This document shows, in pieces, positions 2,160 to 6,374 of a stretch of 6,374 bases of DNA (the first letter of the stretch is position 1; each line of letters begins with the position of its first letter). The notes under the pieces were generated by a model. It had not been told where the DNA came from and searched no databases. It worked only from the letters and a program-made list of their open reading frames with translations. The stretch is from Burkholderiaceae bacterium (GTDB lineage Bacteria; Pseudomonadota; Gammaproteobacteria; Burkholderiales; Burkholderiaceae_D), in contig JAISIS010000046.1 in assembly GCA_031261905.1 (NCBI GenBank), positions 1-6,374 of the forward strand, written 5' to 3'. The translations under genes were made by a program, and so were the position numbers.

Positions 2160-2236
<77 letters not shown>

Positions 2237-2336: not shown

Positions 2337-3377
2337 ATGGCAACTTTCGTCAGAACCGAATCCGATACATGGAAAGCGCTTATCCGCAAGAAGGGATGGC
2401 CTACCCTCAGCAAAACCTTCCGTACCAAGCGTGACGCAATGGATTGGGCGCGCCGGACAGAAGATGAAATGGTGCGCGGTGTCTTTGTGCTGCGGACATC
2501 CTCCGAGCGTGTGACCTTTTCCGAAGCGCTTGATCGTTACCTTGCAGAAGTAACGCCCACCAAAAAGCCCAAGACACAAACAAGGGAACACGGCGTTGCC
2601 AGGCACCTCAGGCTTTTCTTCGGTAAATATTCCCTTGCCGCCATCAGCAGTGAACTTGTTGCCGTTTACCGTGACAAACGCCTTGCCGAAGGCAAATCCA
2701 ATAACACGGTGCGCATTGAACTTGCCTTGCTCAGCCACCTTTATGCCACCGCCATCATGGAATGGGGAATGGGACTGACGGTCAACCCAGTTGCCAATAT
2801 CCGCAAACCCAGTCCCGGCGCAGGGCGCAATCGCCGCCTTGGCAGGGAAGAAGAACAAAAATTGCTGGAGGCAGTCAATCATCACAGTAACCCCATGTTG
2901 GGCTGGATTGTGCGTATTGCCATCGAAACAGGGATGAGGCAATCCGAAATACTGGAATTACGCCTGCACCAGGTGGATTTAAAAAAACGGGTTGTCCGGC
3001 TGGAAGACACCAAAAACAACGATTCCCGCACCGTCCCCCTGACACTTGCCGCTACAGAAGTTTTCCGGAAAGCGCTGGGCAACCCCTCACGCCCTGCTGG
3101 GACAGACCTTGTGTTTTTCGGAGAACCCGGAAAAGACAGGCAACGCCGCCGCTACGAATTTCTCAAAACATGGCAGCACATCAAAAAATCACTTGGCATG
3201 GAAGACCTGCATTTCCATGACCTGCGCCACGAAGCCGTCAGCCGTCTGGTTGAAGCCGGATTAAGCGACCAGGAAGTAGCATCCATAAGCGGCCATAAAT
3301 CCATGCAGATGCTCAGGCGCTATACACATTTACGGGCAGAGGATTTGGTTGCCCGGCTGGACAGGATTGGCGCATAG
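2337..3377 (+). CDS. int: Site-specific tyrosine recombinase / integrase
   Basis: A 346-residue recombinase that should insert the element at, and with a directionality factor excise it from, the adjacent tRNA. The start ATG has GGAGG 4 nt upstream. The N-terminal ~50 residues look like a small arm/AP2-like DNA-binding domain (TWKALIRKKG, TFRTKRDA). A core-binding SAM-like domain covers about 60-145 (FSEALDRYL, NNTVRIELALLSHLY). The catalytic domain follows from about 167. All expected catalytic residues are visible: Arg201 in ETGMRQSEI, Lys226 in the beta-hairpin before RTVPL, His294 and Arg297 in HDLRH, His320 in SGHKS, and the nucleophile Tyr329 in RRYTHL. Length and motifs are those of an intact enzyme. 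It ends 9 bp from the convergent regulator gene. Confidence 0.94.
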   Translation: MATFVRTESDTWKALIRKKGWPTLSKTFRTKRDAMDWARRTEDEMVRGVFVLRTSSERVTFSEALDRYLAEVTPTKKPKTQTREHGVARHLRLFFGKYSLAAISSELVAVYRDKRLAEGKSNNTVRIELALLSHLYATAIMEWGMGLTVNPVANIRKPSPGAGRNRRLGREEEQKLLEAVNHHSNPMLGWIVRIAIETGMRQSEILELRLHQVDLKKRVVRLEDTKNNDSRTVPLTLAATEVFRKALGNPSRPAGTDLVFFGEPGKDRQRRRYEFLKTWQHIKKSLGMEDLHFHDLRHEAVSRLVEAGLSDQEVASISGHKSMQMLRRYTHLRAEDLVARLDRIGA

Positions 3378-3386
3378 AAATAGCAT

Positions 3387-4049
3387 TTATTCCCCCGGCC
3401 TTGGCAAATAAAACAAATCCCAGACAGACTGATGCGCCTTGCGCTGGTCTCCCCCGATAACTGGACTACCCTCTGGTTTCCTCTTCAAATCCCGGCGTTC
3501 CTTTATAGATTGCAGCTTGCGCTCCCGTGCCTTCTCCCGGTCTTTTGCCATTTCCACAAACGCCTGATAATCCTTTGTTTCCACAAACCCATAGATAAGG
3601 TCACACAGTGGGCTTTCCTGTACATGCCCAAGTTCCGACCTCACCTTACGTGAAACCGCCATGCGTGCCACCTCATCATCCATATCAATGCCGGACTGCC
3701 CATACAGCATAGCCGCCAGTCGAAGCTGCTCATCAAAATACGCCTTGTCAGCAGGTTCCTGATAGTCCAGACGTTCCGGGAAACCCTGCACCAGCGGCGG
3801 CGCGACATGGCCGTTGACAGCATCCGTGATGCCTGTTGCCAGCCAAAACGCATACTGCGGCCACAAGCGGGTAAGCGCCTCAATCATATCCAGGGTAGGG
3901 TTTTGCGTTCGCCTAAGCATATTGCGCCATCGCTGCGAAGAAACCCCCGTCTGTTCCTCAAGCGCGGAAAAGAAACCATATCCGCTGTCGAGGTTACGGA
4001 TTAGCAGGATAAGCCTGTCAGTGAGCGTAGTGGGAGCGGAGCTTGACAT
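3387..4049 (-). CDS. Helix-turn-helix transcriptional regulator, phage-repressor-like N-terminus
   Basis: A 220-residue protein. Residues about 9-62 form a helical DNA-binding domain: LTDRLILLIRNL, then GFFSALEEQTGVSSQRWRNM resembling a helix-turn-helix with recognition helix near SSQRWRNML, then LDMIEALTRLWPQYAFWLATG, a stretch often seen in XRE-like regulators of mobile elements. The middle (about 95-165) is acidic and helical with no domain I recognise. The C-terminal part at about 167-192 is strongly basic (REKARERKLQ, KERRDLKRK). It is convergent with the recombinase and divergent from the small HTH gene at 4153, the usual place for a regulator of the excision/transfer switch. Its promoter overlaps a palindrome, consistent with autorepression. 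No clear ribosome-binding site precedes the ATG, only a GGG. The regulatory role is inferred; the DNA-binding fold is fairly clear. Confidence 0.8.
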   Translation of the reverse strand: MSSSAPTTLTDRLILLIRNLDSGYGFFSALEEQTGVSSQRWRNMLRRTQNPTLDMIEALTRLWPQYAFWLATGITDAVNGHVAPPLVQGFPERLDYQEPADKAYFDEQLRLAAMLYGQSGIDMDDEVARMAVSRKVRSELGHVQESPLCDLIYGFVETKDYQAFVEMAKDREKARERKLQSIKERRDLKRKPEGSPVIGGDQRKAHQSVWDLFYLPRPGE

Positions 4050-4069
4050 ATTATGCCCAATAAATTAAC

Positions 4070-4088
4070 TTGTGCATATTACACACAA
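4070..4088. promoter_or_regulatory. TTGTG-N9-CACAA palindrome over the -10 box, possible operator
   Basis: TTGTG at 4070-4074 and CACAA at 4084-4088 are exact inverted copies whose centres are 14 bp apart. They enclose the -10 box and reach the expected start point of the minus-strand regulator. A dimeric HTH protein bound here would block that promoter. The owner is unknown; autorepression by the product of 3387-4049, or control by the 72-residue protein, are the simplest options. Confidence 0.5.
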
Positions 4089-4106
4089 TGCGATTAAGAA
4101 TGTCAA
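4078..4106 (-). promoter_or_regulatory. Strong sigma-70 promoter of the minus-strand HTH regulator
   Basis: On the minus strand: perfect -35 TTGACA (4106-4101), a 17-bp spacer, and -10 TGTAAT (4083-4078, five of six consensus). Transcription would begin near 4071, leaving a leader of about 20 nt to the ATG at 4049. It is the best promoter match I found in the window. Confidence 0.75.
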
Positions 4107-4152
4107 TAAGTTTTTATTATTTTGCACGGCTTTTTGGGGAAGGGGATAAAAA

Positions 4153-4371
4153 ATGAATACCGAGCAGCATCTTGTAGAAAAACATGGCCCATTGATGACG
4201 CTCCCGGTCCTGGCGAAGATGTTGGACAGGACAACTACAGGCTTGCGCCTGTTTTTGCGGCAGGACGATGATATTTCCCGCCAGCTTAACCGTGCGCGTT
4301 TGAAGATAGGCAGGCGGGTGTATTTCAGGACAAGCATGGTATCCCGTGTTATTGACGGGGAGGGAAAATGA
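4153..4371 (+). CDS. Small excisionase-like helix-turn-helix DNA-binding protein
   Basis: A 72-residue protein with a purine-rich ribosome-binding site (GGGGAAGGGG, 4136-4145) ahead of its ATG. Residues about 15-36 (MTLPVLAKMLDRTTTGLRLFLR) look like the helix-turn-helix of the AlpA/excisionase/MerR-like group, and the end (LKIGRRVYFRTSMVSRVI, about 50-67) looks like the wing and final helix. Small proteins of this type act as recombination directionality factors or as regulators in integrated elements. Divergent placement next to the larger HTH gene fits either role. Its stop overlaps the ATG of a very short reading frame (ATGA, 4368-4371). A real DNA-binding protein is likely; excisionase activity is inferred. 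Confidence 0.75.
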   Translation: MNTEQHLVEKHGPLMTLPVLAKMLDRTTTGLRLFLRQDDDISRQLNRARLKIGRRVYFRTSMVSRVIDGEGK

Positions 4372-4424
4372 GCCGTTTTATTCAGGGACGCCATGAAGTT
4401 GCCGCATTCTTGCCGTACTTCTGA
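4368..4424 (+). CDS. Possible 18-codon reading frame coupled to the small HTH gene
   Basis: An ATG overlapping the previous stop as ATGA, with a good Shine-Dalgarno (GGGGAGGG, 4357-4364) close ahead, opens an 18-residue frame (MSRFIQGRHEVAAFLPYF) that stops at 4422-4424 inside the third unit of the repeat array. It may be a leader-like peptide, a gene truncated when the array expanded, or chance. The overlap and ribosome-binding site are real; expression is not shown. Confidence 0.3.
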   Translation: MSRFIQGRHEVAAFLPYF

Positions 4425-4720
4425 AAGTTTCTGCCATATGCCTGCCGTACTTCTGCCGCATTATTGAAAGTAATGGCAGTAAACGCAAAAACATCTGCCG
4501 TAAAGCTGTCGCATTCCAGAAAGTTTTTGCCGTATTTCAGAAAGCGCTTGCCGTACAGGTTAAAGGTTTTGCAGTACAGGTGAAACTTTTTGCAGCCTGA
4601 TTGCCAACCAGATGCATCCAAAGTGCAGTACAGGTGCAGCACAAGTGCAAACTTTGTGCGAACTTCTGCAAACTTTCTGCATACGGGCTGCAAACTGGCT
4701 GCAAGCCAACTGAAACCGGG
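4389..4720. repeat. Helically phased degenerate tandem array, about 30 units of 10-11 bp
   Basis: A TGC-led word recurs at 4400, 4411, 4432, 4443, 4454, 4496, 4528, 4549, 4570, 4591, 4602, 4613, 4624, 4635, 4646, 4657, 4667, 4678, 4689 and 4700. The gaps are filled in register by variants: TGA at 4422, 4465, 4581 and 4711, TGG at 4474, CGC at 4484, TGT at 4507, CAG at 4517 and 4538, TTA at 4560. From 4400 to 4711 there are 29 steps averaging 10.7 bp, nearly one DNA turn each. Typical units are TGCCGTACTTC (4411, 4443), TGCAGTACAGG (4570, 4624) and TGCAAACTTTC (4667). Weaker in-phase units extend left (4389) and right (CGG 4721, TGA 4732, CGG 4742, TGC 4752). No protein-coding model explains it. 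The layout resembles centromere- or relaxosome-type binding arrays; the function here is inferred. Confidence 0.88.
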
Positions 4721-4726
4721 CGGTTT
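4713..4726. other. Short hairpin at the array/oriT junction
   Basis: AAACC (4713-4717) pairs with GGTTT (4722-4726) around GGGC, and two further T residues follow. A second, longer-range pair, CCGGG (4716-4720) with CCCGG (4740-4744), is possible. Either could be an oriT-associated structure or a weak terminator. Short stems like these also arise by chance. Confidence 0.3.
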
Positions 4727-4770
4727 TTAGCTGAAATTTCCCGGCATTTTATGCAAGAAATCACGTTTTT

Positions 4771-4797
4771 GTAGGGAGGGCAGGATAGCCCTGCGGA
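4771..4797 (-). other. oriT: oriT nic site of the RP4/VirD2 (MOBP) type
   Basis: On the minus strand the sequence reads GGCTATCCTG|CCCTCCC. It matches the conserved YATCCTG|Y core cut by MOBP relaxases of IncP plasmids (RP4 TraI) and by VirD2 at T-DNA borders. The predicted nick is between 4781 and 4780. The core is part of an inverted repeat, GCAGG (4780-4784) with CCTGC (4790-4794). With this polarity the array and integration genes enter the recipient first and mobC and the relaxase last, as in RP4. It lies 66 bp before the mobC-like ATG and just after the array. A MOBP-type relaxase encoded next door supports the call. Confidence 0.75.
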
Positions 4798-4846
4798 TGC
4801 CTGATGTCATACGCGCCCCACAAAAACGCCAACCGGAGATCGCCAC

Positions 4847-5431
4847 ATGCAAAGCCCGACAGATTCCCCATTCCCCGAAGCACTCGATACCATCCTTCCA
4901 ATCCGCATCGGGCAAAAGGCACGCGCCCGGTTTCGGGAACTGGCCCGGCAATCAGGCAAGACCGAATCCCAATATGCCCGGCAAATGATTTATGAGGCCA
5001 TCGCCAAAGCAAACAATGCCGGACAAACACCGGAACCAACAACATTACCCACCCTTTCACCAGAAGAAACCCGGCCTTGCCGTATCGCCATCCGGCTGCC
5101 GCGCTTTCTGCTTTTAAAGGCCAAAGCGCGCGCAGGGCAAAAAGGCATGAGCACCAACCGATGGATAGCCGCACTTATCCAGTCCAACATGCTCAACATC
5201 CCCGTCATGACAGAAACCGAAGTTGCCATTCTCAGGGAAAGCAACTACCAGCTAATGGCTATCGGCAGGAACATAAACCAGATAACCCGCGCCCTTAATA
5301 CCGGAGAACCTGACAAGGATACCCCCGCCATCCTCTTAAGACTGAAACAGCACCTGTCCCGGACAGAAACCCATATCAGCGAGCTGGTATCCGCCAGCCG
5401 CAACTCATGGCGGGTAAACGATGCTGCTTGA
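4847..5431 (+). CDS. mobC: MobC-like relaxosome accessory protein with two ribbon-helix-helix domains
   Basis: A 194-residue protein, GGAG 8 nt before its ATG. Two RHH-type segments follow each other: about 16-56 (LPIRIGQKARARFRELARQ, then KTESQYARQMIYEAIAKA) and about 77-117 (CRIAIRLPRFLLLKAKARA, then MSTNRWIAALIQSNM). Each has a beta strand and two helices. Residues about 124-152 carry the MobC/NikA-family signature, ending in LMAIGRNINQITRALN. Proteins of this family bind oriT and help the relaxase open the nic region. It overlaps the relaxase start by 11 nt, implying translational coupling. The doubled RHH is unusual for short MobC proteins and would suit binding to in-phase repeats, such as those immediately upstream. 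The family call is firm; array binding is a proposal. Confidence 0.85.
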   Translation: MQSPTDSPFPEALDTILPIRIGQKARARFRELARQSGKTESQYARQMIYEAIAKANNAGQTPEPTTLPTLSPEETRPCRIAIRLPRFLLLKAKARAGQKGMSTNRWIAALIQSNMLNIPVMTETEVAILRESNYQLMAIGRNINQITRALNTGEPDKDTPAILLRLKQHLSRTETHISELVSASRNSWRVNDAA

Positions 5432-6374
5432 GCCGATACTGGGAAAAAGCCTGCTTATCAGGAGAAAGGGAAACCACACCCCCAACCTGCTTGCCCGTAT
5501 ACGCCGGGTATCCAGAGGCGCAACAGAAGTCATGGTCAAAATCACCGGCTTTGGCAAAGGGTTTACCCATATCCGTTCCCACATGGATTACATCAGCAGG
5601 AACGGCAAAAACAAACTGGAAACCGAAACAGGCGAAACCCTGCAAGGCCAGGACAGCATCCATGATTACCTAGATTGCTGGAAAAGGGACATAACCAGCA
5701 GCCGGGCATACCGCCCCAGCAACCGGGATACGATGCACCTGGTACTATCCATGCCCGCATCCGTAGACAGCGAATCCGTCAGGAAGGCCACACGGGAATT
5801 TGCGAAAGAAACATTCAATAACCACGCCTATGTCTTTACCCTGCATACAGACGCAGCCCATCCGCACTGCCATTTGTCAGTGCGGATGGAAGGATTCAAC
5901 GGAAAACGCCTGAACCCGAAAAAGGCGGACTTGCAGGCATGGCGTGACGCCTTTGCGGAAAAGATGCGTGAACAAGGGATTGAGGCTGAATCCACGCCCC
6001 GGCATATCAGGGGGGTTACCCGTAAAGCGGAAAAGTCAGTCATACGCAATATTGAAAAACAGCGCGTATCAAAAGCACGCGCCAGAAAGGTTAGGGAAGC
6101 CGTCAACGAGATGACGGGCAAGGCCGTACCATCACAAACTATCTGTGACATAGAGGCAAAAGCCATCAATCGGCAAAGGCATATCCGCAGGGCGTGGCTG
6201 AATACGGCATGGCAACTGGAAGCGGAGAACCCTTCACTGGCGCAAGAGATTCATCAGATGGTAAGGAATATGCCCGTGCCGGAAACGGAGCGCCAGCAAC
6301 TGAAACGGGCACTCAGGGAGCGATTTGGGAGGCAACAGGAACAACAGCCGGAACGGCAGGAAGCCAGCGCGGGC
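5421..6374 (+). CDS. MOBP-type relaxase (VirD2/TraI-like mobilization nuclease), 3' end outside window
   Basis: An open frame of 318 codons running off the right edge without a stop. It is the DNA-nicking transesterase of transfer. Motif I is around HIRSHMDYISRNG, with Tyr57 the likely catalytic residue by analogy to LVKYIT of RP4 TraI. Motif III is HTDAAHPHCHL at 142-152, with His142, His147, His149 and His151 forming the metal-binding cluster. HLVLSMP at 106-112 is a core beta strand. Beyond about 200 the chain becomes Arg/Glu/Gln-rich. I chose ATG 5421, which overlaps mobC by 11 nt; its ribosome-binding site is weak. ATG 5532 (MVKITGFGKG) is an alternative start that keeps all motifs. Family members often have such an N-terminal extension. 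The substrate is probably the nic site at 4780/4781. Confidence 0.9.
   Translation, partial: MLLEPILGKSLLIRRKGNHTPNLLARIRRVSRGATEVMVKITGFGKGFTHIRSHMDYISRNGKNKLETETGETLQGQDSIHDYLDCWKRDITSSRAYRPSNRDTMHLVLSMPASVDSESVRKATREFAKETFNNHAYVFTLHTDAAHPHCHLSVRMEGFNGKRLNPKKADLQAWRDAFAEKMREQGIEAESTPRHIRGVTRKAEKSVIRNIEKQRVSKARARKVREAVNEMTGKAVPSQTICDIEAKAINRQRHIRRAWLNTAWQLEAENPSLAQEIHQMVRNMPVPETERQQLKRALRERFGRQQEQQPERQEASAG

Follow-up and report, generated by a model that had tools for sequence, protein, structure and literature searches.

We analysed a window of 6,374 bp, a whole contig (JAISIS010000046.1) of a 1.2-Mb draft genome, taken to be Oxalobacter, that is 76% complete. The contig holds part of a predicted mobilizable integrative element (IME), with an integrase, a relaxase, a MobC protein and the core of a predicted origin of transfer (oriT); the element's right end lies beyond it. 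Our subject is an array of TGC units, spaced by about one turn of the DNA helix, that lies between HTH72, a gene for a small helix-turn-helix (HTH) protein, and the oriT core. The features run in the following order (database matches with E values in brackets):

7-2151: rpoD, chromosomal, preceding tRNA-Met (Pfam)
2160..2236, plus strand: tRNA-Met (CAT), possible attachment site (ARAGORN)
2337..3377, plus strand: tyrosine recombinase, the integrase (PF00589, 1.2e-36)
3387..4049, minus strand: 220-aa HTH protein, repressor-like by our own reading (weak HTH_31 match, 0.043, below cut-off)
4153..4371, plus strand: HTH72, a 72-aa predicted winged-HTH protein, the favoured array binder
4400..4762, no strand: phased array, ~34 degenerate 10-11-bp TGC units
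4778..4790, no strand: predicted oriT core GGGCAGGATAGCC (core motif before mobC in relatives)
4847..5431, plus strand: MobC/NikA-like protein, predicted tandem ribbon-helix-helix (RHH) (NikA-like, 6.3e-07; MobC, 4.2e-05)
5421..6374, plus strand: MobP1-type relaxase, cut by the contig end (PF03432, 1.2e-16; NF041450, 6.7e-35)

An array in helical phase beside a predicted oriT

The stretch 4389-4720 holds 21 TGC, of which 20 share one phase and one (at 4439) is off phase by eye. Thirteen pairs of TGC lie 10 or 11 bp apart, whereas 2,000 dinucleotide-preserving shuffles average 1.2 such pairs and never exceed 6. Likewise, Fourier analysis places the TGC peak at 10.7 bp with a power of 16.2, against a maximum of 11.2 in 1,000 shuffles, confirming a periodicity that an initial annotation of this DNA had noticed in the letters. 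Base identity at lag 11, counted free of any motif, reaches 0.417, while shuffled sequence averages 0.249 (z 6.8, 500 shuffles). Chain alignment yields 35 units over 4389-4762, or 34 counted from 4400, in 23 steps of 11 bp and 11 steps of 10 bp; the units at its ends are weak, as lengthening the chain is rewarded by the method. The array first marked at 4389-4720 is real, but its end had been set too short, as units run on to the right up to 4762. Information within the unit is concentrated in the first five bases, with the consensus TGCaa.

The right end of the array stops ~15 bp short of the core motif GGGCAGGATAG (4778-4788), and the array thus adjoins the predicted oriT, as had been proposed. 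A core of this kind precedes mobC in 23 of 32 named relaxase loci (pattern search). We take the core to resemble the RP4-type nic region; nic would lie on the minus strand between 4780 and 4781, and the array, which the core separates from mobC and relaxase, would because of this resemblance be on the leading side. The relaxase scores 61.6 bits against PF03432 (cut-off 24.6), indicating a MobA/VirD2-like nuclease domain, and 121 bits against the MobP1 subfamily NF041450, below the cut-off of 200 for a protein that is cut by the contig end. Together with the conserved core before mobC, this marks a MOBP relaxase with its predicted oriT. A 286-aa metagenome relative of MobC (P0015, 61% identical) has a reading frame that runs through a conserved oriT; upstream of that oriT its TGC-compatible positions are phased, with 18 of 5,000 residue shuffles reaching the same value, which is suggestive only.

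Other origins of such a repeat were considered. Slippage was rejected, as TRF gives only short 11- and 21-bp pieces with 76-85% matches. The minus-strand open reading frame (ORF) 4382-4693, the sole array ORF scanned, belongs to no notable family and gives one chance-level Pfam row (E 0.034). Likewise, no long frame is common to the arrays of the window and of a second Oxalobacter element (L009), and a conserved coding gene, which would have refuted the initial annotation, was rejected. Frames over the two arrays agree only in short pieces (7-27 residues) spread over several frames of both strands, the pattern expected when a shared repeat is translated in whichever frame. An RNA element was rejected too, with no Rfam family match in 4050-4900.

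DNA relatives of the array were absent from plasmids. In viral contigs a six-fold TGC pattern occurs in at least 120 stretches, several of them near-perfect tandem repeats among the matches listed; tblastn with Stb, relaxase, MobC and HTH72 (one query empty) found none of these at the viral stretches among the matches listed. One contig of the viral collection (L048:9681-9941) carries TTGC-type repeats 11 bp apart that resemble the stbDRs of R388.

As to the surroundings, the draft genome holds no second copy of the tRNA 3' end at up to 3 mismatches, and the right end of the element was therefore not located. The 220-aa HTH protein has no relative in the other loci searched. An inverted repeat, TTGTG-N9-CACAA, lies at 4070-4088 between its gene and the divergent HTH72 gene and is a possible operator. 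C-terminal pieces of other such relaxases stand at contig ends in L011, which belongs to the window's own genome, and in L010, suggesting that the genus holds several such elements. The relaxase has no relative among viral contigs.

Arrays in related elements

In the element L009 a TGC(A) array occupies the same position, with a replication-type gene ahead of it and the core behind. The L009 relaxase is 51-52%, its MobC 36-37% and its HTH72 64-66% identical to those of the window; the TGC(A) unit is common to both Oxalobacter arrays despite the low identity of MobC. With 300 shuffles for each locus, the periodicity on the array side (left of the core) reaches z 16.8 in the window, 8.9 in L009, 4.4 in L186, 2.9 in L160 (4/300 reach it) and 1.7 in L187 (13/300), compared with 4.2 for the R388 stbDRs; right of the core, the window and L009 show none. 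Single weak values mean little, because few shuffles matched certain control stretches right of the core as well (L005 2/300, L187 5/300, L183 8/300). The arrays of Methylococcaceae have a similar period with other motifs, TACG-type in L186 and GnAA-type in L160. Relatives thus keep a spacing of 10.3-11.0 bp with differing motifs, which bears out the proposal that spacing is conserved better than sequence. StbA- and StbB-like genes lie on the array side of mobC in L159, L169, L186 and L187 (in L187, StbB 4.1e-100 and StbA_2 4.2e-4, the latter below cut-off).

We then called an array at a core clear when at most 4 of 400 shuffles reached it, with both strands scanned. Five loci pass: the window, L009, L160 (1/400), L186 and L187. 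Clear arrays stand at two of five cores of loci with HTH72 (the window and L009; L247 9/400, L171 16/400, L237 49/400) and at two of three cores with detected Stb genes (L186 and L187; L169 339/400). None was found at the 26 cores with neither HTH72 nor Stb detected in the flanks examined (lowest 16/400), loci of which 25 have MobC and all 26 a relaxase. Left out of these counts were a core-like match of the window at 4004 (a chance match in another gene), L161, L166 and L230 (the last two with too little DNA left of the core) and L229, whose core is situated past the 3' end of its relaxase gene; the test covers relaxase loci with a core match, which L159, among others, lacks. L170 counts as negative, with 4/300 at the band edge of 11.5 bp and 36/400 when the band is cut at 11.3.

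Two of these loci deserve description. L229 has a 10.6-bp phased AT-rich stretch at 100-600 (1/200 shuffles, plus-strand scan), left of a core-like GCAGGATAGG, and an ORF beside it is StbA-like by eye. L171 (7620-7780), an element of a Massilia metagenome-assembled genome, has the order integrase, HTH72, rep, mobC, relaxase, with its oriT core ~3 kb past the relaxase; the core is preceded by three CTTGGTA-N-TACCAAG-like palindromes, one imperfect, and by no clear array.

Of 392 genomes in the family, 22 hold HTH72 relatives by a profile of the two HTH72 proteins, the two Oxalobacter genomes being among them, and HTH72 has no relative in plasmids. A simple lag test on 1.5-kb flanks showed no array outside Oxalobacter; it missed those of L236 and L240, which lie 1.1 kb downstream of HTH72. 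A scan for 10.2-11.2-bp periodicity then covered longer DNA (9.8-19.5 kb, in most cases 18 kb) surrounding a further 20 HTH72 relatives. Ten of the 20 loci carry a strong array (10.6-10.9 bp, score 7.7-16.5), always downstream of HTH72, at 1.1 or 3.5-4.7 kb. At the threshold of 7, none of 20 control stretches from the same genomes has one (maximum 6.9; one control is only 3.8 kb), and lowering it to 6 gives arrays in 10 HTH72 loci and 1 control. The Mann-Whitney p of 2.7e-5 for loci versus controls is too small, because the elements are related and the loci not phylogenetically independent. Integrase relatives with 66-75% identity to that of the window occur in 12 of the 20 loci, and that of L171 is 71% identical.

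Among the ten array loci, seven also have a conserved GTGGAACATAAAGGG together with a relative of the RHH/zinc-ribbon gene found in L238 or L248. As for the others, the L250 contig ends just past its array, and L254 and L255 lack that RHH gene and GTGGAACATAAAGGG, their arrays overlapping predicted ORFs. A TGCATCC pair occurs in L243, L250 and L251, in 0 of 20 controls and in neither the window nor L009. L236, L238, L240, L243, L248, L249 and L251 are small integrative elements. Besides HTH72 and the array they have a replication-type gene, TrbJ/TrbL-like genes, GTGGAACATAAAGGG and the RHH/zinc-ribbon-type gene, but no match to the window's relaxase, the sole relaxase query; the best-scoring array window of L236 and L240 is found between rep and the TrbJ-like gene. 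It is possible that these seven are satellites of conjugative elements.

HTH72 and other candidate readers

We read the array as a likely docking track beside the predicted oriT, on which a DNA-binding protein would oligomerise. We favour the element's own HTH72 as its reader over MobC or the StbA of a helper, and give a probability of roughly 40% to a track read by HTH72 with one protomer per turn. HTH72 is modelled with good confidence (pLDDT 88) as a winged HTH whose N-terminal helix resembles the one in RdfS. Among solved folds the model comes closest to RdfS, to BldC-DNA complexes and to Pukovnik Xis, each with middling Z; StbA is not among the fold matches of the model, which excludes nothing. 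According to the available part of the source, BldC covers direct repeats in head-to-tail order, and on smeA-sffA successive molecules are one DNA turn apart (PMC5859096), and the available accounts of BldC and RdfS describe head-to-tail oligomers with a loose sequence demand (PMC5859096, PMC11963761). Such a demand fits a track with kept spacing and drifting bases. In the available text on RdfS, the rdfS gene precedes both oriT and the relaxase gene, and without it neither excision nor the mobilisation of a plasmid with cloned oriT takes place (PMC11963761).

HTH72 would assemble head to tail along the array, one protomer per helical turn, on the side that would enter the recipient first given an RP4-type nic position. 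Coated and bent in this way, the DNA might keep the relaxosome, made up of relaxase and MobC, in a fixed arrangement; since HTH72 resembles excisionases, it may also couple the element's excision to the onset of transfer. In its broadest form the proposal is a spacing-only code at oriT, in which an excisionase-like winged-HTH filament both excises the element and builds the relaxosome in a broad family of integrative elements, with drifting motifs and only the one-turn register selected; in this breadth we consider it unlikely.

Several observations weigh against HTH72 as the reader. RdfS binding is reported at attP and at its own promoter, with none at oriT in the available part of that study (PMC11963761). 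Array words are not enriched before HTH72 genes (12 loci, forward strand). The contrast with the 26 array-less loci is limited, as the DNA left of the core is short in some of them (0.5-0.8 kb in five). Ten array-less HTH72 loci have no match to the TrbJ, TrbL or RHH queries, indicating that the array belongs with the transfer region and that HTH72 alone does not predict it.

The main rival reader is MobC, a MobC/NikA-like tandem-RHH protein that would bind one chain per turn and leave HTH72 an excisionase only; ParR on parC provides the model for one RHH chain per turn. The MobC model is a predicted tandem RHH of modest confidence (pLDDT 72.6), and its best Foldseek rows are chains of the F relaxosome, presumably TraY (best E 2.6e-03). 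An RHH-type gene comes next after array and core in the window and L009, and within ~150 bp beyond GTGGAACATAAAGGG in the seven small elements (the RHH profile matches of L238 and L248 are below cut-off). However, MobC does not predict the array, because it was detected in 25 of the 26 array-less loci. The MobC proteins of the window and L009 are as diverged as those of the window and L187 (36% vs 35%), yet the motif is common only to the first pair, and RA3 MobC is described, in the available part of the source, as binding an imperfect palindrome at its own promoter (PMC4175270). We hold MobC as reader to be somewhat unlikely. Still less probable is an orphan StbA-type array: an element without stbAB would use the StbA-like protein supplied by a conjugative helper, either to stabilise the excised circle or to tune transfer. 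SGI1, which borrows IncC partition proteins through its own parS sites in the available account (PMC10954446), is a precedent; the R388 array has the same TGCA core and gives T = 10.6 by the same test, sustaining the likeness to R388 stb repeats drawn in the initial annotation; and four relatives carry StbA/StbB-like genes, as described above. No helper is known, however, and motifs differ in other HTH72 elements. No StbB was detected in 13 Oxalobacter genomes, a weak result as the controls were silent too, and the one match to StbA_2, in a single genome of the 13, was weak (E 0.175).

Two further explanations do without a reader of this kind. The phase might serve intrinsic curvature, with phased A/T runs aiding the folding of the relaxosome and TGC having no dedicated reader. 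Runs of at least 3 are phased in the window (1/300 shuffles), runs of at least 3 and at least 4 in L009 (0/300 each), and TT is phased about like TG in the window (power 18.6 vs 19.7). Yet runs of at least 4 are not phased in the window (86/300), where TGC is the best-phased 3-mer (17.0 vs 11.2 for TTT). Since A/T runs are phased, strongly so in L009, intrinsic bending may add to function; as the whole explanation we find it very unlikely. The array might also be the replication origin (iterons) of the excised element, as its best window follows a replication-type gene in L009 (STY4528-like, below cut-off), L236 and L240 (TrfA-like). But the window has no rep gene between HTH72 and the array (the contig is cut), and in loci of the L238, L243 and L248 type the array is near the RHH gene and several kb from rep; we hold this explanation to be highly improbable.

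Comparison with known arrays and filaments

In titles and abstract openings, with subscription literature largely outside the scope, we found no description of a phased array this long on a mobilizable integrative element. What the literature does describe are shorter arrays, as in R388, filaments of BldC and RdfS and, for SGI1, a borrowed centromere. If HTH72 reads the array as proposed, a transfer-origin design would conserve helical register rather than bases across elements with different transfer modules, and recombination directionality factors would be linked to relaxosome assembly. The outcome of the periodicity scan, 10 of 20 HTH72 loci against 0 of 20 controls, suggests a sequence-independent search for oriT regions. 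The overall base is one main homologue pair, and several identities rest on weak profile scores.

The closest likeness is to StbA (N-terminal structure 7pc1) and the stbDRs of R388, which are, in the available part of the source, 9-bp repeats spaced by two nucleotides (PMC3098194); the same text calls TraK a homologue of StbA. In both systems TGCA-containing direct repeats recur about every 11 bp and adjoin oriT within the leading region; for the window, oriT is predicted and the leading side would follow from the RP4-type nic position. R388 has two sets of five 9-mers beside stbABC and a MOBF relaxase, whereas the window has ~34 degenerate units and a MOBP-type relaxase; StbA binds the R388 consensus TTGCATCAT, of which the units in the window share TGCA only. 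Searching by tblastn with R388 and L187 queries, we found no stbA or stbB beside the repeats in the window's contig (cut at 6374) or the 14.7-kb L009 contig, StbB being the conserved one of the two, so that a diverged StbA could escape.

In RP4 a protein binds between nic and the traK gene. RP4 and the window presumably agree in MOBP relaxase and core motif, and they differ in that the Oxalobacter elements have no recognised TraK/StbA-like gene. BldC on smeA-sffA, RdfS and Xis filaments resemble the proposed HTH72 assembly in being winged-HTH, head to tail and loose in sequence demand. One turn per protomer is known for BldC on smeA-sffA, and the likeness of HTH72 to it is a middling match of a predicted fold; BldC sites hold 2 or 4 protomers in the available account, compared with ~34 units here. 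A general profile scan found no ParM-type ATPase among the window's proteins, with the rest of the genome outside the search. The repeats of R1 parC are also 11 bp apart and are bound by the RHH protein ParR; they lie in the par operon, whereas the array in the window adjoins a predicted oriT. The window's array is a variant of the StbA/TraK/ParR kind of array.
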